Origin: Methylobacterium sp.
GTDB taxonomy: Bacteria; Pseudomonadota; Alphaproteobacteria; Rhizobiales; Beijerinckiaceae
Assembly: GCA_021154065.1 (NCBI GenBank)
Contig: JAJKJG010000219.1
Location: forward strand, 1 to 6,042
DNA length: 6,042 bases
Direction of reading: 5' to 3'
Shown piece by piece: positions 1 to 6,042 of this stretch (the stretch's first letter is position 1; every line of letters starts with the position of its first letter). A program made the position numbers and the translations under genes. The notes below the pieces were generated by a model. The model saw only the letters and a list, made by a program, of their open reading frames with translations. It made no database searches and was not told where the DNA came from.

Positions 1-638
1 ATCCCGGCGATGGCGAGGATGTCCTCGACGAAGGCCCGCGCCGCCTGCGGCGCCTGGCCCTCGATCGCGGCGAGGAGGCCGGCATGCTCGCCGATGCCCT
101 GTCCGGCGGGCTCGGCGAGGCCTTCGAGGCGGCGACCGGACACGATGGCGCGCATGACCCGGCGCTTCGCCGCCGCGCCGACCGCGAGCGCCTCGAGGAG
201 CGTCTCGAGGAGGCCCATGTCGCCAAGCTTCACGGCGAGCGGAGGGGCGCCGAGGGCCGCGAGGCCCTCGAGCGCCAGCGCCACGACCTCGGCATCTGCC
301 GCGGCAGCGTCGCGGCGGCCGATCGACTCGATACCAGCATGCAGGAACTCGCCGGTCTCGCCGGTGCGCAGCCGGAACACCGGGCCGAGATAGCTATAGC
401 TCGCCGGCGCCGCGCCGACGCGGTCGAGATGCCAGCGGCAGACCGGGATGGTGTATTCGGGGCGAAGGCAGAGCTCGCGGCCGGCCGCGTCCTGCGTCAC
501 GAACATCCGGCGCCGGATATCCTCGCCGGAGAGGTCGATGAAGATGTCGGCGGGCTGCAGCACGGGCGGCTCGAGGCGCGCGTAACCCTCGCGCTCGAAG
601 AGCGCGATCAACGCGTCGTTCGCGGCGGCTGCGGTCAT
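1..638 (-). CDS. hisZ: ATP phosphoribosyltransferase regulatory subunit HisZ (partial, C-terminus off the left edge)
   Basis: HisZ is a catalytically inactive paralogue of histidyl-tRNA synthetase. It binds the short form of HisG and gives it activity and histidine feedback control in the first step of histidine biosynthesis, in the cytoplasm. The 212 visible residues match the class II synthetase-like core. An early segment reads EPPVLQPADIF, followed by the signature LCLRPEYTIPVCR at about residues 56-68, then SYLGPVFRLRTGETGEFLHAG (about 81-101) in the motif-2 region, and the helix-rich part that follows (KLGDMGLLETLL). Alphaproteobacterial HisZ is about 370-380 residues, so somewhat more than half is present. 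The ATG at 638 is preceded by a GGTGGAG ribosome site, rather close to the start. In many alphaproteobacteria hisZ sits between hisS and hisG. Here the gene directly upstream is not hisS, and hisG could lie beyond the left edge. The family call is firm; only the end is missing. Confidence 0.93.
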   Translation of the reverse strand, partial: MTAAAANDALIALFEREGYARLEPPVLQPADIFIDLSGEDIRRRMFVTQDAAGRELCLRPEYTIPVCRWHLDRVGAAPASYSYLGPVFRLRTGETGEFLHAGIESIGRRDAAAADAEVVALALEGLAALGAPPLAVKLGDMGLLETLLEALAVGAAAKRRVMRAIVSGRRLEGLAEPAGQGIGEHAGLLAAIEGQAPQAARAFVEDILAIAG

Positions 639-791: not shown

Positions 792-1208
792 TCAGTGGTC
801 GCGGCGCTGGTCCGGCGTGTCCTTGCGCTTCTTGCGGCCGTTGCCCGGAATTGCGGCATCCTCTCCGGCGCGCTTGCCCTGCCGGTCGTCGTTCTCGCCC
901 GTCATGGCCGAGGGCAGGATGCGGCGGGCCGCGCCGGCGACGACTTCGGCAACGGCGCCGGTCGCGGTCTGGCCGATATCCTTGGCGCCGGACGCGGCCT
1001 CAGCGCCGGCTCCGGCGACGGCTTTGTTGCCCGCCAGCACTCCGGCGACGGCGATCAGAGCGTCGGCGACGAGTTCGCGGGCCATCGGCGAGGTGACGAG
1101 CGAGGCGAGCATGTCGCCGGCGCTGCGCACCTCCTTCGGCACTTTCGTGCCGCCGATCTTCTTCGGCATCTTCGCCGACTTGCCCTTGGACGCCTTCTTC
1201 TTGGCCAT
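792..1208 (-). CDS. Conserved-looking Lys/Ala-rich small protein, function unknown
   Basis: A 138-residue protein not assigned to a characterised family. It has a strongly basic N-terminus (MAKKKASKGKSAKMPKKI, then TKVPKEVRSAG to residue 31), a mildly hydrophobic Ala/Gly-rich helical middle (about residues 33-98, including ADALIAVAGVLAG at 49-60) and a charged hydrophilic C-terminus (GRKKRKDTPDQRRDH). Short proteins with a similar PKKI.G.KVPKE.R opening are, from memory, common as hypothetical proteins in Hyphomicrobiales. No signal peptide is visible; the middle could be an amphipathic or membrane-associating helix. The frame stays open to an ATG at 1331, but the EcfG-type promoter at 1244-1268 lies inside that extension. 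Transcription would therefore begin near 1237, and the ATG at 1208 is the usable start. The ribosome site (CCAGGTG) is weak. The gene is monocistronic, closed by the terminator at 746-784. Confidence 0.8.
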   Translation of the reverse strand: MAKKKASKGKSAKMPKKIGGTKVPKEVRSAGDMLASLVTSPMARELVADALIAVAGVLAGNKAVAGAGAEAASGAKDIGQTATGAVAEVVAGAARRILPSAMTGENDDRQGKRAGEDAAIPGNGRKKRKDTPDQRRDH

Positions 1209-1243: not shown

Positions 1244-1268
1244 AACGGCGGCCGAGCTTGGCGGTTCC
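1244..1268 (-). promoter_or_regulatory. EcfG (general stress response) promoter, perfect match
   Basis: On the minus strand this reads GGAAC (1268-1264), a 16-base spacer, then CGTT (1247-1244). It matches the known alphaproteobacterial EcfG/SigT consensus GGAAC-N16/17-CGTT at all nine positions. It lies 35 bases from the ATG at 1208, which predicts a leader of about 30 bases. It therefore assigns the downstream gene to the general stress regulon and fixes the start codon. The motif and spacing are seen directly; regulation is inferred from the consensus. Confidence 0.8.
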
Positions 1269-1354
1269 GAGGCCGGCCATGAGCCGCACGAAACAGCCCG
1301 GAAACATCGTGGCGCTATTCGGCGCGCTCATCGGAGCGGCACCGAGGAATCGCC

Positions 1355-1612
1355 ATGCAATATCAGCCCCTGCGGCTCTCGCCGGGCCAAGGCCGCGGCT
1401 TTCCTGCTTTCAGCGCGCTCCACCGCGAGCCGGGAAGCGGCGGCCGCGGCGCCTGGACCGTCTCCCACCGTGGTCCGGAAGGCATCCTGCTCGAGCTCCG
1501 CTCCGGCGGCTCCCTCGAGCCGTCGCTGCGGCTTGACGCGGCTGCGGCGCGAAGGCTCGCGGGCGAGCTCCTGGCGCTCGCCGGAGCGATCGACGGCAGC
1601 GCGTCCGACTGA
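1355..1612 (+). CDS. Small uncharacterised protein (85 residues)
   Basis: Not assigned to a named family. The start is well supported: GAGGA sits 8 bases before the ATG at 1355. The N-terminal third (to about residue 33) is Gly/Pro/Arg-rich and probably flexible. Then come two probable beta strands (AWTVSHR and GILLELRS, about 33-50), followed by a short loop and an amphipathic helix (LDAAAARRLAGELLALAGAID, about 60-80). The strand-strand-helix layout with L.LD...AR.LA..LL.LA resembles small single-domain hypothetical proteins found in several bacterial groups. That is a shape comparison, not a family assignment. It is divergent from the EcfG-driven gene on its left and converges with the basic protein gene on its right, whose stop is 15 bases away. 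No promoter motif was recognised upstream. Codon use has high GC at third positions, like its neighbours. Confidence 0.72.
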   Translation: MQYQPLRLSPGQGRGFPAFSALHREPGSGGRGAWTVSHRGPEGILLELRSGGSLEPSLRLDAAAARRLAGELLALAGAIDGSASD

Positions 1613-1627
1613 GCCCTACGGCAAGAC

Positions 1628-2317
1628 CTAATCCTCAAGACCAGCGTCGGCGCCCTTCGAACGGGCAGCCCCGAGACCCTTGCCCGCACGGGCCGGACGC
1701 TTCGGCGGCTTCGCGCCGCCGCTGGAGGCGGTCGAGCGCACGCCGCTCTTCTTCGATTCCGGAATGCCGGAGATCAGCTCGCCTTTCGGCACCGCGACGA
1801 CATTGCCCGGCGCCGGCACGCGTTGGCGGACGCCGCCGGTGCGCTTGTCCATGGTGCGAGGCTCGATCGCTCCGGCGCCGTCGGCCTTGGCGGCGGGCGG
1901 CGTCGGCCGGCGTCTTGCGGTCGTCGGCACGCTGTCGGCGATCTCGGCGTTCGACTTCGCGCGCCGCAGGACCGTCTCGGGGCCCACCGGCAATGGCGCG
2001 ACCGCATCGGCGCGATGATGCCGCGACGGGCGGGCGCCCGCGACCTTGATCGCGGCATCGATCTTCTTCGAGATCGACATCACGCCGGTGCCCTTCTCGG
2101 CGCCGCGACGCTGATCGGCGAGGGCGCTGCGGGAGTTCGGGCGCGTCGGGATCGGGTCGTCGGCATGGCCGCCGGCCGCGGCGTGGTTGAACTCGATCTC
2201 GTTGACGAAATCCCGGCGGTGCCCCTCGCCCTGAATACGCTGCCGCTCGGCCTTCTTGGTGTGCTGCTTCAGCGCCTGCTTCTCGGCGCGACTGCGCTCT
2301 ATGCCGCGCGACGCCAT
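1628..2317 (-). CDS. Highly basic, probably disordered protein of unknown function
   Basis: A 229-residue protein rich in Arg, Lys, Ala, Pro and Gly, with no recognisable enzyme motif, signal peptide or membrane segment. The first 43 residues look like a charged helix (ERSRAEKQALKQHTKKAERQRI). A second short helix-like stretch is SISKKIDAAIKVAG at about 81-94. The rest, from about 95, is low-complexity and basic, ending SSGGAKPPKRPARAGKGLGAARSKGADAGLED. The ATG at 2317 was chosen over longer forms of the same frame because an excellent ribosome site (AGGAGG, 5 bases upstream) sits directly before it. Third-position GC is high in this frame, which supports real coding. The composition is compatible with nucleic-acid or polyanion binding, but this is inference from charge only. 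A one-mismatch EcfG-type promoter lies upstream. The gene converges with the 85-residue gene, leaving only 15 bases between stops. Confidence 0.72.
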   Translation of the reverse strand: MASRGIERSRAEKQALKQHTKKAERQRIQGEGHRRDFVNEIEFNHAAAGGHADDPIPTRPNSRSALADQRRGAEKGTGVMSISKKIDAAIKVAGARPSRHHRADAVAPLPVGPETVLRRAKSNAEIADSVPTTARRRPTPPAAKADGAGAIEPRTMDKRTGGVRQRVPAPGNVVAVPKGELISGIPESKKSGVRSTASSGGAKPPKRPARAGKGLGAARSKGADAGLED

Positions 2318-2358
2318 CCTTCCCTCCTCGAACGCTTGCCGATGATTCGTTTCGGACC

Positions 2359-2384
2359 AATGCGGCTCAGCCAAAGTCGGTTCC
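2359..2384 (-). promoter_or_regulatory. Possible EcfG-type promoter, one mismatch
   Basis: On the minus strand this reads GGAAC (2384-2380), a 17-base spacer, then CATT (2362-2359) instead of CGTT. The -35 element is perfect and the distance to the ATG at 2317 (about 40 bases) matches the other EcfG-type promoters here. The changed base is, however, in a well-conserved part of the -10. Treat it as a candidate. Confidence 0.35.
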
Positions 2385-2409
2385 GCGGGCCGGCCGGACG
2401 CGCAAACGC

Positions 2410-2436
2410 AAAAAACCCGCCGACGAGGTCGGCGGG
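2410..2436 (-). terminator. Strong intrinsic terminator of the exported Lys-rich protein gene
   Basis: A perfect 9-base stem (CCCGCCGAC at 2416-2424 with GTCGGCGGG at 2428-2436) and a 3-base loop are followed, on the minus strand, by six T residues (complement of AAAAAA at 2410-2415). It starts about 42 bases after the TAA at 2479-2481. It acts only for minus-strand transcription, because the T run is on that side. It isolates the exported-protein gene from the basic-protein gene downstream. Confidence 0.92.
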
Positions 2437-2478
2437 TGTTCGGCAGGCGAGGGGCGCGGGCGATCGGCCCGCGCGCCG

Positions 2479-2679
2479 TTACATCTTCTTCGACTTCTTC
2501 TTCATCGCCTTCTTTTTCGTCGGCTTCATGGGATCGGCCGTCATCGGCCCGCTGCCCGGTCCGCCGCGGGACACCGCCGGGCCGCCGGAGCTTTGGCCGG
2601 TCGACGACTGCTGGGCGAACGCTGGGGCGGCGGCGAGCAGCATCGCGGCCGAGGCAAGCAACAGGACTTTCTTCATCAT
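2479..2679 (-). CDS. Small exported protein with Lys-rich C-terminal tail, function unknown
   Basis: A 66-residue precursor. Residues 1-22 are a clear Sec signal peptide: MMKK, a hydrophobic core LLLASAAMLLAAA, and cleavage after AFA, before QQ. The mature part, about 44 residues, is a Ser/Gly/Pro-rich linker (about 23-47) followed by a Lys-rich tail from residue 52 (KPTKKKAMKKKSKKM). It has no cysteines and no enzyme motif, and is predicted to be a secreted or periplasmic basic peptide. Such a tail could bind lipopolysaccharide, peptidoglycan or DNA, which is inference from charge. AGGAG is 3 bases from the ATG at 2679 and 6 bases from the ATG at 2676. Either start is possible and the second has the better spacing; they differ by one Met. 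The gene is monocistronic, with a perfect EcfG-type promoter upstream and a strong terminator downstream. Confidence 0.82.
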   Translation of the reverse strand: MMKKVLLLASAAMLLAAAPAFAQQSSTGQSSGGPAVSRGGPGSGPMTADPMKPTKKKAMKKKSKKM

Positions 2680-2757
2680 GAACTCCTGGATGCGGGCAGT
2701 GCAGCGGCTTGCCCCTGGCTTCCTCCCGAGATTGCGCCCGGATGCTGCGTAGGCACG

Positions 2758-2783
2758 AACGTTTACGCCACAGCCGAGGTTCC
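2758..2783 (-). promoter_or_regulatory. EcfG (general stress response) promoter, perfect match
   Basis: On the minus strand this reads GGAAC (2783-2779), a 17-base spacer, then CGTT (2761-2758), a nine-of-nine match to the EcfG consensus. The expected transcript start near 2751 leaves a leader of about 70 bases before the exported-protein gene at 2679. It lies wholly in the intergenic region behind the stop of the 82-residue protein gene. Confidence 0.8.
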
Positions 2784-2794
2784 TTGGCCGCCGT

Positions 2795-2809
2795 TCTGCG
2801 CCGCGCAGA
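2795..2809. repeat. Inverted repeat just upstream of an EcfG-type promoter
   Basis: TCTGCGC-C-GCGCAGA has perfect 7-base arms around a single base. It sits 11 bases upstream of the -35 element (2779-2783) and 15 bases after the stop of the 82-residue gene. It may be a regulator-binding palindrome or a weak 3' hairpin of the gene upstream (5-base stem, 5-base loop, no T run). Nothing decides between these. Confidence 0.35.
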
Positions 2810-2824
2810 CAAGTCAGCGTGAGG

Positions 2825-3073
2825 CTAGGGCTTCTCGCGGATCGCCCGCCCGACCTCGAGCGAGGCGCTGCGGACCTCGGTGTCCGAGAGGCTGCCGGCG
2901 GTGCCGGCGTCGATCGCGTCCGCGATGGCCGGCAGGTCCGGGTCCTCGCCGAGCCCCTTGAGGAGATCGAGGATCCGCATCGCCTTGTCGGCGCTCTCCG
3001 GGCTCGCGCGGGCGATCTCCTCGGCGAGCGCAGCGATCGCCTCGATGATCGCCTGACCGTCCCGCGCCGGCAT
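2825..3073 (-). CDS. Small acidic helical protein, function unknown
   Basis: An 82-residue cytoplasmic-looking protein with no family that I recognise. It appears all-helical: QAIIEAIAALAEEIARA (about 7-23), SADKAMRILDLLKGLG (about 27-42), a short DPDLPAIADAIDAG segment, then a final helix TEVRSASLEVGRAIREK. It has no cysteines, signal peptide or membrane segment. The ATG at 3073 has an excellent ribosome site (GGAGGA, 6 bases away) and lies downstream of a perfect EcfG-type promoter. An in-frame ATG at 3109 falls at or before the predicted transcript start and is rejected. Its size and amphipathic helices would suit a small protein-protein interaction module, but that is a guess. It is divergent from the membrane protein gene on its right. 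Confidence 0.78.
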   Translation of the reverse strand: MPARDGQAIIEAIAALAEEIARASPESADKAMRILDLLKGLGEDPDLPAIADAIDAGTAGSLSDTEVRSASLEVGRAIREKP

Positions 3074-3088
3074 GAATGGTCCTCCGAA

Positions 3089-3106
3089 CCGCCGCCGATG
3101 CGGCGG
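3089..3106 (-). promoter_or_regulatory. Leader hairpin before the 82-residue protein gene
   Basis: CCGCCGC (3089-3095) and GCGGCGG (3100-3106) form a perfect 7-base GC-only stem with a 4-base loop. With transcription starting near 3110, the hairpin fills most of the 5' leader and stops 3 bases before the GGAGGA ribosome site (3080-3085). It could stabilise the 5' end or modulate translation. Hairpins of this kind also arise by chance in GC-rich DNA. Confidence 0.4.
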
Positions 3107-3117
3107 CACACCGCCTC

Positions 3118-3142
3118 AACGGCACCGGTGCGCGTGCGTTCC
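3118..3142 (-). promoter_or_regulatory. EcfG (general stress response) promoter, perfect match
   Basis: On the minus strand this reads GGAAC (3142-3138), a 16-base spacer, then CGTT (3121-3118). It is the third nine-of-nine EcfG consensus match in the window. It directs transcription toward the 82-residue protein gene starting at 3073, with a predicted leader of about 37 bases. Confidence 0.8.
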
Positions 3143-3819: not shown

Positions 3820-4110
3820 CTATTCCTTCGACATGATCTTCTCGGCCGCGGTCAACAGGCTGATCGTCGGGTTCTGGGCGCAATAGGCGCCGAGCTTCTG
3901 CCCATCGGTCGCCATCTTGTCGAAATCGATCACCGCGTCGTCGTCCTCGCTGGTGTAATAGCCGCTCAGCCACATTAAGAGATTGCCGATCGTATCCTTC
4001 GGGCTCTTGACGAAGTCCTCGCATTTGATCGTCGCGACGTCGAGCTTCTGGGCCGAAGCGGGCGTGGCGCTCATGAACGCAAAAAGCACGAGGGCGAGGG
4101 CGGTGCGCAT
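3820..4110 (-). CDS. HdeA/HdeB-like periplasmic acid-stress chaperone family protein
   Basis: A 96-residue precursor. Residues 1-20 are a signal peptide (MRTALALVLFAFMSATPASA, cleaved before QKLD). The mature protein of about 76 residues carries the HdeA/HdeB pattern. CEDFV begins with the first cysteine (residue 30), then come NLLMWLSGYYTSEDDDAVIDFDKM and a second cysteine (residue 77) in LGAYCAQNP, ending in a short helix (TAAEKIM). The two cysteines are expected to form the family's disulphide. In enteric bacteria HdeA and HdeB prevent aggregation of periplasmic proteins at low pH. In Alphaproteobacteria the role of such homologues is less clear, so only the family is assigned. The ATG at 4110 is preceded by GGAG with a 7-base gap. 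An in-frame extension to 4263 lacks the signal-peptide position and overlaps the neighbouring gene, so it is rejected. No EcfG motif was found upstream. Confidence 0.85.
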   Translation of the reverse strand: MRTALALVLFAFMSATPASAQKLDVATIKCEDFVKSPKDTIGNLLMWLSGYYTSEDDDAVIDFDKMATDGQKLGAYCAQNPTISLLTAAEKIMSKE

Positions 4111-4190
4111 GTCAGGTCTCCGGTGGGATGCTCCCGGCCCATCGTAGACGCCGGCGGCGGACTTGGCCACGGCGGACGTCGGGCGGTGGC

Positions 4191-5244: not shown

Positions 5245-6042
5245 CTAGGTCTCGGCGGCGTCTCTCTGGCCATTCCCGGCCGTCGCGCCGGCAACGGGCA
5301 GCGCGGGGTCGAAGAGCCGCGTCGGGCCTTGGGCGGCTTTCCACCCGAAGTGGCCGCCGGCCATGTAGCGGGCGTCGAAACCGGCCTTGCGCAAGGTCGC
5401 GGCGGTCTCGCAGCCGATGTGGAATCCGTACACGCAGAAGGTGACGACGGGCGCGCTCTTCGAGAGCTCGCCGATCCATTCGTCGAGGCGCTCGGGGTCG
5501 CGCCAGACCGCTCCCTCCATGATCTCCTGCGCCCGGCTGCTGTAGTGCCGCGGACGCGTGTCGATGATCTGGACCGGGGTCCCGGAGGCGAGCATCGCCT
5601 TGACGTCCTCGACGGTCACCGCCGGCAGGTCGGCGAACTGCTTCTGCTCGAGCGGCCGCGGCGGCGCGACCTTCGCCGCGTCGTCGTATCTCGCCGTCAC
5701 GGCGCTCCAATCGATGTTGCGCATGAAGGCCGCGACGTAGGCGGTCGCGTTGGCGCCGAACTCCAGGTGATAGGCATGCTCGTACATGTCGAGCGCGAGG
5801 ATGGGGATCCCGCCCGCAATGGTCTGACTGTCATCCGATCCGGCATGGTTGACGAGGCGGTGATCGCGCGGCACGTAGCTGAGAAGCACCCATCCGGAGC
5901 CGCCGGCGAGACTCTGGGCCAGTGCCACGAACTCCCGGCGCCAGCGGTCGACGGAGCCGAAATCCCGCACTATCGCCGCCGCCATCGTCTCCGGGACGGC
6001 CCGGCCGTCGCCGCCGAGGCTTGCGAAGTAAAGCTCGTGCAG
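5245..6042 (-). CDS. Fe/Mn superoxide dismutase fused to a rhodanese domain (partial, N-terminus off the right edge)
   Basis: 265 residues are visible; the frame is open to the window edge, so the beginning is missing (probably some 60-80 residues). Residues 1-123 are the C-terminal part of an Fe/Mn superoxide dismutase. LHELYF carries the second metal-ligand His (visible residue 2), followed by GGSGWVLLSYV, then LALDMYEHAYHLEFG with the Asp and His ligands (D85, H89), and FMRNIDWSAVTARY. The usual DxWEHAY is DMYEHAY here (Trp to Tyr). After a linker (124-137), residues about 138-240 form a rhodanese domain: VQIIDTR, EGAVWRDPERLDEWIGEL, the active-site loop CVYGFHIG with catalytic Cys203, and GFDARYMAGGHFGW. 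The first His ligand is off the window. The expected role is superoxide removal coupled to sulphur transfer or thiol chemistry; the second part is inference. It is the first gene of an operon with the cyclodeaminase-family gene. Confidence 0.92.
   Translation of the reverse strand: MHELYFASLGGDGRAVPETMAAAIVRDFGSVDRWRREFVALAQSLAGGSGWVLLSYVPRDHRLVNHAGSDDSQTIAGGIPILALDMYEHAYHLEFGANATAYVAAFMRNIDWSAVTARYDDAAKVAPPRPLEQKQFADLPAVTVEDVKAMLASGTPVQIIDTRPRHYSSRAQEIMEGAVWRDPERLDEWIGELSKSAPVVTFCVYGFHIGCETAATLRKAGFDARYMAGGHFGWKAAQGPTRLFDPALPVAGATAGNGQRDAAET

Follow-up and report, generated by a model that had tools for sequence, protein, structure and literature searches.

Conserved EcfG-type promoter motifs precede three small genes of unassigned family in Methylobacterium sp.

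Introduction

The closest described systems to the locus presented here are the regulons of the general-stress sigma factor EcfG (ECF15). The consensus of its promoters in M. extorquens is given as GAAC-N16,17-C/GGTT in the available text of one article (PMC4814048), and the promoter of EcfG1 in Rhizobium etli as GGAAC-N16-CGTT in that of another (PMC3892343). According to the accessible part of a review, a function has been annotated for only 37% of the genes that make up the direct EcfG regulon in Sphingopyxis granuli (PMC8103513).

The locus belongs to Methylobacterium sp. and was analyzed as a single stretch of 6,042 nt, referred to below as the window. The original prediction took the EcfG consensus as established, and both published forms, as far as these sources give them, agree with the motif GGAAC-N16/17-CGTT followed here (PMC4814048, PMC3892343).

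Results

Three perfect motifs in the window

GGAAC-N16/17-CGTT was found exactly three times in the window, with spacers of 16 (P1), 17 (P2) and 16 (P3) nt, always on the minus strand (Table 1). None of the three sites lies inside any of the ten genes taken as real; as had been predicted, each is placed in sense orientation shortly before the start codon of a small minus-strand gene. Relaxed scans of the window yielded no extra minus-strand site. A single plus-strand match to the looser GAAC-N17-GGTT was observed at 2757-2781, overlapping P2, which is partly palindromic.

Table 1. Features of the window, with positions numbered from its first nucleotide
Feature	Position	Strand	Description
hisZ	3..638	minus	ATP phosphoribosyltransferase regulatory subunit; cut by window end
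g138	792..1208	minus	138 aa, basic, Lys/Ala-rich, pI 10.2; open frame; 55 homologues
P1	1244..1268	minus	EcfG-type promoter motif, GGAAC-N16-CGTT; motif end 35 bp upstream of g138
g230	1628..2320	minus	230 aa, basic; lacks its own EcfG motif within the window
Hairpin	2415..2437	minus	intrinsic-terminator-like, after g66; 10-bp stem, 3-nt loop, T run
g66	2479..2679	minus	66 aa; open frame; signal-like N-terminus ending AFAQQ
P2	2758..2783	minus	EcfG-type promoter motif, GGAAC-N17-CGTT; motif end 78 bp upstream of g66
g82	2825..3073	minus	82 aa, acidic, pI 4.4; open frame; 24 homologues; four predicted helices
P3	3118..3142	minus	EcfG-type promoter motif, GGAAC-N16-CGTT; motif end 44 bp upstream of g82
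HdeA-family gene	3820..4113	minus	97 aa; lacks its own motif within the window

The possibility that the three motifs are chance matches was weighed by two estimates. Dinucleotide shuffles of the window contained a mean of 0.06 matches (sd 0.25, largest 2) and three or more in 0 of 200, and the Poisson probability of at least three with this mean is 3e-5. The densities of perfect motifs in two related genomes, 92 in 4.5 Mb (G001) and 97 in 4.2 Mb (G002), correspond to 0.12-0.14 matches expected per 6 kb and to a probability of 3-4e-4. The figure put forward originally was about 0.1 chance matches. Since these probabilities ignore the number of windows and motifs examined when the prediction was made, conservation among relatives carries more weight as a test.

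The genome-wide counts of perfect matches exceeded those of a reversed-pattern control by a narrow margin in G002 (97/85), G042 (43/38) and G104 (44/35), and by a wider one in G001 (92/58), G160 (34/22), G077 (58/27), G199 (48/16) and G127 (35/5). A bare match thus tells little without position and conservation, and in favor of chance stand the 92 and 97 perfect matches of G001 and G002, which in G002 hardly outnumber the reversed pattern. In other genomes, however, the position of the motif is conserved upstream of each of the three families, most clearly at g138, where the upstream alignment described below speaks strongly against chance; the case of g82 rests on two relatives. Taken together with the crowding of three sites in 6 kb, this makes coincidence highly improbable.

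Retention of the motif upstream of homologues in related genomes

Disappearance of the motif from close relatives still carrying the genes had been proposed as the observation that would count against the prediction. When these relatives were compared, the motif was found to be kept in 25 of 30 g138 loci, in the best 4 of 30 g66 loci and in the best 2 of 12 g82 loci; distant homologues of the three genes lack it.

At g138, the form kept at about the position of P1 is GGAAC-N16/17-NGTT, the perfect CGTT being present in 5 of the 30 loci. Possession of the motif coincides exactly with having hisZ as the co-directional downstream neighbor (the same 25 loci), and the motif is missing from the other five, which match less well. 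When the upstream regions of the window and the 30 loci (31 in all) were aligned with MAFFT, without the motif being supplied, GGAAC and GGTT stood out as conserved blocks separated by a poorly conserved spacer. GGAAC-N16/17-NGTT occurred in 26 of these 31 regions and the [CG]GTT form in 24; for the latter, the controls gave 0/31 in antisense, 0/30 in the adjoining 130 bp further upstream and 0.055/31 after base shuffling. The motif distance of 38 bp at L022 is rough, its start codon being uncertain. No match was obtained when the genome contigs were searched with the single 138-aa sequence, and two loci were found with the g138 alignment as query. A conserved AAGCTTGACC-ATCAGGAG block after the g138 promoter was considered as a general stress leader and discarded, as exact copies occur once per genome (five genomes), at g138. 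A terminator between g138 and hisZ was likewise not supported, the hairpin there (z -1.6) showing no clear gain over shuffles and being absent from the terminator scan, and transcription may read through from g138 into hisZ.

At g66, the perfect motif lies 72-84 bp upstream of the homologue in the four best-matching loci, and the distance of P2 from the equivalent Met is 81 bp. Three of the loci (L055, L056 and L057) had already been found with the window sequence alone and were built into the g66 profile, so that only L058 is new. This profile matched 34 of 298 genomes, and most of the 30 loci were set aside as apparent signal-peptide or Lys-rich look-alikes, except about six (L055-L059 and L061, the last cut by a contig end). 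The motif was absent from L061 and L069 when these were rechecked. Nor does a likely homologue of g66 in G199, truncated where its contig ends, carry it. The terminator scan of the window returned two sites against 2.3 expected by shuffling, and the hairpin after g66 had a z of -4.3.

At g82, the perfect motif was present in the two best matches, 49 bp (G001) and 42 bp (G002) upstream of the gene, and absent from the ten more distant loci.

The motif as an EcfG signal in related genomes

Among 19 chosen related genomes, a PF22029 match was detected in 19 and NepR in 18. Of 19 nepR loci, 18 have the [CG]GTT motif upstream of nepR. These 18 come from the 18 genomes with NepR, one locus apiece, and the exception is the second nepR of G099. 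Therefore, the motif is an EcfG signal in the related genomes. Perfect motifs crowd at phyR-nepR (10 in 6.2 kb of G001 and 11 in 9.4 kb of G002), which is the densest motif cluster observed in these two genomes; in G002, this neighborhood (L004) was read directly and holds phyR, nepR and, beside the latter, an ECF sigma gene. In G077, nepR carries the motif, yet none was found before its three homologues of the window genes, and loss of the regulator was thus rejected as the reason for this absence.

The prediction that these promoters are read by EcfG is supported by the conservation in relatives, the motif before nepR and the published consensus. They might instead be read by a different ECF sigma factor, or by a paralogue of EcfG outside NepR control, that shares the -35 box and has a similar -10 box, giving a narrower stress response. 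Many genomes do contain several matches to the model of PhyR sigma-2, one that ECF sigma factors match as well (12 in G237), and the available text on M. extorquens reports six EcfG proteins, most apparently free of NepR control (PMC4814048). Nevertheless, the same text conveys the authors' suggestion that these proteins recognize similar promoters (PMC4814048), and the frequency of the motif before nepR also argues for EcfG, which leaves the alternative very unlikely.

Arrangement of the motif-gene pairs

The locus had been described as a compact general stress response locus. This part of the prediction is weaker: the motif-gene pairs do not form a conserved unit and are scattered in relatives. 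The genes g82 and g138 lie close together in G001 and 0.54 Mb apart in G002, where their motifs precede unlinked genes; g230 accompanies g82 in both genomes. In the flanks (up to about 1.5 kb) of three of the four motif-bearing g66 loci, no homologue of the 82-aa, 230-aa or 138-aa proteins was detected.

The cluster might be one functional stress module with products acting together, rather than three separately regulated neighbors. In its favor, HdeA, g82, g230, g138 and hisZ are collinear in L001, with the HdeA homologue directly before the promoter-g82 pair, and contigs, judged by their length, seem to be shared by g138 and g66 homologues (P0043/P0081, also with neighboring locus tags, and P0037/P0085) and by g82 and g138 homologues (P0012/P0072). 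On the other hand, the syntenic stretch of L001 showed no g66 match, a hairpin resembling a terminator lies between g66 and g230, and g82 and g138 are not linked in G002. The module is therefore considered unlikely, and the motif-gene pairs look separate from each other.

The three products

In agreement with the claim that the products have no known function, none of the three matched any Pfam or NCBIfam family at E <= 0.001. The literature search retrieved no title or abstract naming the three families; a microarray table of M. extorquens may list the genes under locus tags. The structure model of g138 was poor (pLDDT 53), with a helical centre predicted at low confidence, and its profile had no match in the PDB up to E 1. 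In g66, the signal-like N-terminus is followed by a conserved stretch, QQSxTGQSSGGPA, and the tail is Lys-rich. The name "YdeI (BOF family)", which one source gives to the 66-aa homologue P0082, was not adopted, as no Pfam or NCBIfam match supports it for the window protein. The model of g82 (mean pLDDT 74, pTM 0.44) had no match among PDB folds at E <= 0.001, the best being 4.7. Kinship of g82 to designed helical proteins (best profile E 2.8e-6) was rejected, as it looks like helix composition instead.

Discussion

These comparisons support the three sites as putative EcfG promoters, each serving one of the small genes. Promoters read by EcfG, driving the 138-, 66- and 82-aa genes under stress, are with high confidence the best explanation overall, and the genes are very probably stress-response genes of an already expected kind. 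For the Methylobacterium sp. of the window itself, we infer both the activity of the promoters and their reading by EcfG.

Under stress, phosphorylated PhyR would titrate the anti-sigma factor NepR and free EcfG, and RNA polymerase carrying this sigma factor would use the GGAAC-N16/17-CGTT sites as promoters. Short transcripts would begin just downstream of each site and encode a basic helical protein (138 aa), an apparently exported cationic protein (66 aa) and an acidic helical protein (82 aa). As a guess, the first might protect nucleic acid or membrane, the second might be a protective protein in the envelope, and the third a small helical partner protein.

A large share of the EcfG regulon lacks annotation, and these three small families are tied to it by promoter conservation, beyond a single motif match. 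The addition of three uncharacterized small families to a known, poorly annotated regulon is thus well supported. With the motif and hisZ beside it in 25 genomes, g138 lends itself to reporter and deletion studies in a laboratory strain possessing it.

Regarding the known systems, the EcfG (ECF15) regulon of M. extorquens AM1 has similar boxes, GAAC-N16,17-C/GGTT in the text available (PMC4814048); the GGTT form is found in most g138 relatives, whereas the window carries the CGTT form. The likeness to Rhizobium etli EcfG1 lies in GGAAC-N16-CGTT, compared by motif only, while organism and targets are different (PMC3892343, as far as available). The EcfG targets of Sphingomonas melonis Fr1 are alike in that, in the part of the source at hand, the motif is enriched within 100 bp of the start and many targets are hypothetical, and differ in the motif, GGAAC-N17-20-GTT, and the clade (PMC6599016). 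Finally, in the phyR-nepR neighborhoods L003 (G001) and L004 (G002), the latter having an ecfG-like gene next to nepR, the motif again stands upstream of nepR; in L003 it also precedes KGG, DUF1328, PRC-barrel, SDR and small unnamed genes. In the window, unlike these two neighborhoods, no regulator gene was found, and its genes are putative targets only.

Motif occurrence and gene arrangement

The three perfect EcfG-type motifs (GGAAC-N16/17-CGTT) of the original prediction, each on the minus strand before a small gene, were borne out, and a pattern scan of the whole window gave exactly these three sites (P1, P2, and P3). Shuffled windows contained 0.06 motifs on average, with at least three in 0 of 200 shuffles; at the density seen in two related genomes, 0.12–0.14 matches would be expected per window, with P(≥3) of about 3–4e-4. 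Taken alone, however, perfect matches are common in genomes, which counts against the EcfG reading. The genome-wide counts in related genomes, compared with the reversed pattern, were 92/58 (G001), 97/85 (G002), 43/38 (G042), 44/35 (G104), 58/27 (G077), 34/22 (G160), 48/16 (G199), and 35/5 (G127).

Features of the window in forward-strand numbering
Feature	Position	Strand	Remarks
hisZ	3-638	minus	
138-aa gene	792-1208	minus	
P1	1244-1268	minus	perfect motif
230-aa protein gene	1628-2320	minus	very basic (pI 11.1), without family
Terminator-like hairpin after 66-aa gene	2437-2415	minus	10-bp stem, T run, fold z -4.3
66-aa gene	2479-2679	minus	
P2	2758-2783	minus	perfect motif
82-aa gene	2825-3073	minus	
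P3	3118-3142	minus	perfect motif
HdeA/HdeB-family gene	3820-4113	minus	
Superoxide dismutase/rhodanese frame	5245-6042	minus	C-terminal Fe/Mn superoxide dismutase domain joined to rhodanese domain; cut by window end

The minus-strand series begins with the HdeA-family gene, continues with the 82-aa gene behind P3, the 66-aa gene behind P2, the 230-aa gene, and the 138-aa gene behind P1, and ends with hisZ. Interspersed on the plus strand are genes of 85 and 208 aa, the latter separating the HdeA/HdeB-family gene from the promoter/82-aa pair; in the related locus L001, the HdeA/HdeB homologue (77% identity) directly precedes that pair. The 230-aa gene has no separate EcfG motif in the window; G001 and G002 carry it alongside the 82-aa gene. 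Since the terminator scan of the window found no more sites than shuffles (2 vs. 2.3), weight rests on the stability of the hairpin after the 66-aa gene. Neither the gap from the 82-aa gene to P2 nor that separating the 138-aa gene from hisZ showed a clear terminator on scanning and folding. The proposed compact stress locus describes the lineage of the window, but is not a conserved unit.

The three products

As predicted, the small genes were unannotated, none of the products matching Pfam or NCBIfam at E ≤ 0.001. Protein searches found 55 (138-aa), 8 (66-aa), and 24 (82-aa) homologues, and the genes are therefore very probably real. The named sources were mainly Microvirga and Beijerinckiaceae MAGs, with one partial Geminicoccaceae entry, and the 66-aa product was identical over its full length (100%) to one Microvirga MAG protein. 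With a pI of 10.2, the 138-aa product is basic; its ends are rich in Lys, and its centre is helical and moderately hydrophobic according to a low-confidence model. The N-terminus of the 66-aa product is signal-like, and its mature form has a pI of 10.9. The 82-aa product, predicted to form four helices, is acidic (pI 4.4). It is a guess that these products protect nucleic acid, the membrane or the envelope.

Conservation of the probable promoters

In a sample of 298 genomes belonging to the same family as the Microvirga MAG G001, 138-aa matches occurred in 28, and 30 loci of the 32 matches listed were examined. The perfect CGTT motif lay upstream in 5/30, and GGAAC-N17-GGTT occupied the same place in most of the others. 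When the 130 bp before the start were compared (window gene plus 30 loci), the NGTT form with N16/17 was present in 26/31 and the [CG]GTT form in 24/31, against 0/31 for the latter on the antisense strand, 0/30 in the next 130 bp, and 0.055/31 in base shuffles. Spacing to the start was 30–35 bp, except for about 38 in L022 (start uncertain) and 17 in L024. A MAFFT alignment, to which the motif was not supplied, recovered conserved GGAAC and GGTT blocks with a variable spacer.

The 25 motif-bearing loci coincided exactly with those having a co-directional hisZ match downstream, within the roughly 1.5 kb of flank retrieved. The five loci L030–L034, which rank lowest among the 30 matches, lacked the motif and any hisZ match in that flank. 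G001 and G237 each hold one copy of either kind, which makes the motif-less one a paralogue in these genomes; in G001 (L033) its match is interrupted by a stop codon.

A block AAGCTTGACC-ATCAGGAG, located after the EcfG -10 box and before the 138-aa start, was strongly conserved in most of L007–L025 and in L027 (for example, G279:C22:250278-250295). Its exact copy occurred once per genome, at the 138-aa homologue, in the five genomes searched, and it might serve as a leader specific to this gene or as a small-RNA site.

Relatives of the 66-aa gene, recognized by QQSxTGQSSGG or similar after a signal-like N-terminus, were found with the window sequence in G104, G042, and G127, and by profile in G160. 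All four carried the perfect motif 72–84 bp upstream (81 in the window). No motif preceded a fifth match (G077) or the likely homologue of G199, cut by a contig end. Among unrelated low-scoring matches, L063 and L074 had the perfect motif some 41 and 52 bp upstream, respectively, and L084 had the [CG]GTT form 30 bp upstream. L063 and L074 encode exported-looking proteins with a common TGSITIAPEKRT stretch.

The 82-aa homologue was present in 12/298 genomes, with the perfect motif 49 bp (G001) and 42 bp (G002) upstream of the two best matches and absent before the other 10; the case for this promoter rests on two relatives, which is a point against it. In G002, the 82-aa (2.39 Mb) and 138-aa (2.93 Mb) genes are far apart, and both motifs were therefore retained without linkage.

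Motif and stress regulators

The regulators were surveyed in 19 selected related genomes, mostly picked for carrying one of the three genes. The PhyR sigma-2 model, which also matches ECF sigma factors, matched all 19, and the anti-sigma factor NepR was found in 18. The [CG]GTT motif lay upstream of nepR in 18/19 loci; every one of the 18 genomes has one such locus, and the exception is a second nepR of G099. In G002, the motif precedes nepR, which with an adjoining ECF sigma gene (labelled ecfG by position, its NCBIfam name being merely 'RNA polymerase sigma factor') runs opposite to phyR, a layout described as usual for Alphaproteobacteria in PMC4814048. Around the phyR-nepR core, G001 has 10 perfect motifs within 6.2 kb and G002 has 11 within 9.4 kb, those of G001 preceding KGG, DUF1328, PRC-barrel, SDR, and small unnamed genes. 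A further point against the EcfG reading is that G077 has the regulators, yet none of its three homologues is preceded by the motif.

When relatives that keep the genes were checked for the motif, it was retained at 25/30 138-aa loci, before four 66-aa relatives and in 2/12 82-aa cases, and was missing from the remaining 138-aa and 82-aa loci and from the 66-aa match of G077 and the likely one of G199. Overall, it is very probable that the three sites are genuine EcfG promoters and that the three families are targeted directly. The three families were not named in the titles and abstracts searched. EcfG targets are a kind of finding already known, and the GGTT form upstream of most 138-aa relatives is the form published for Methylobacterium extorquens, the consensus given in PMC4814048 being GAAC-N16,17-C/GGTT.
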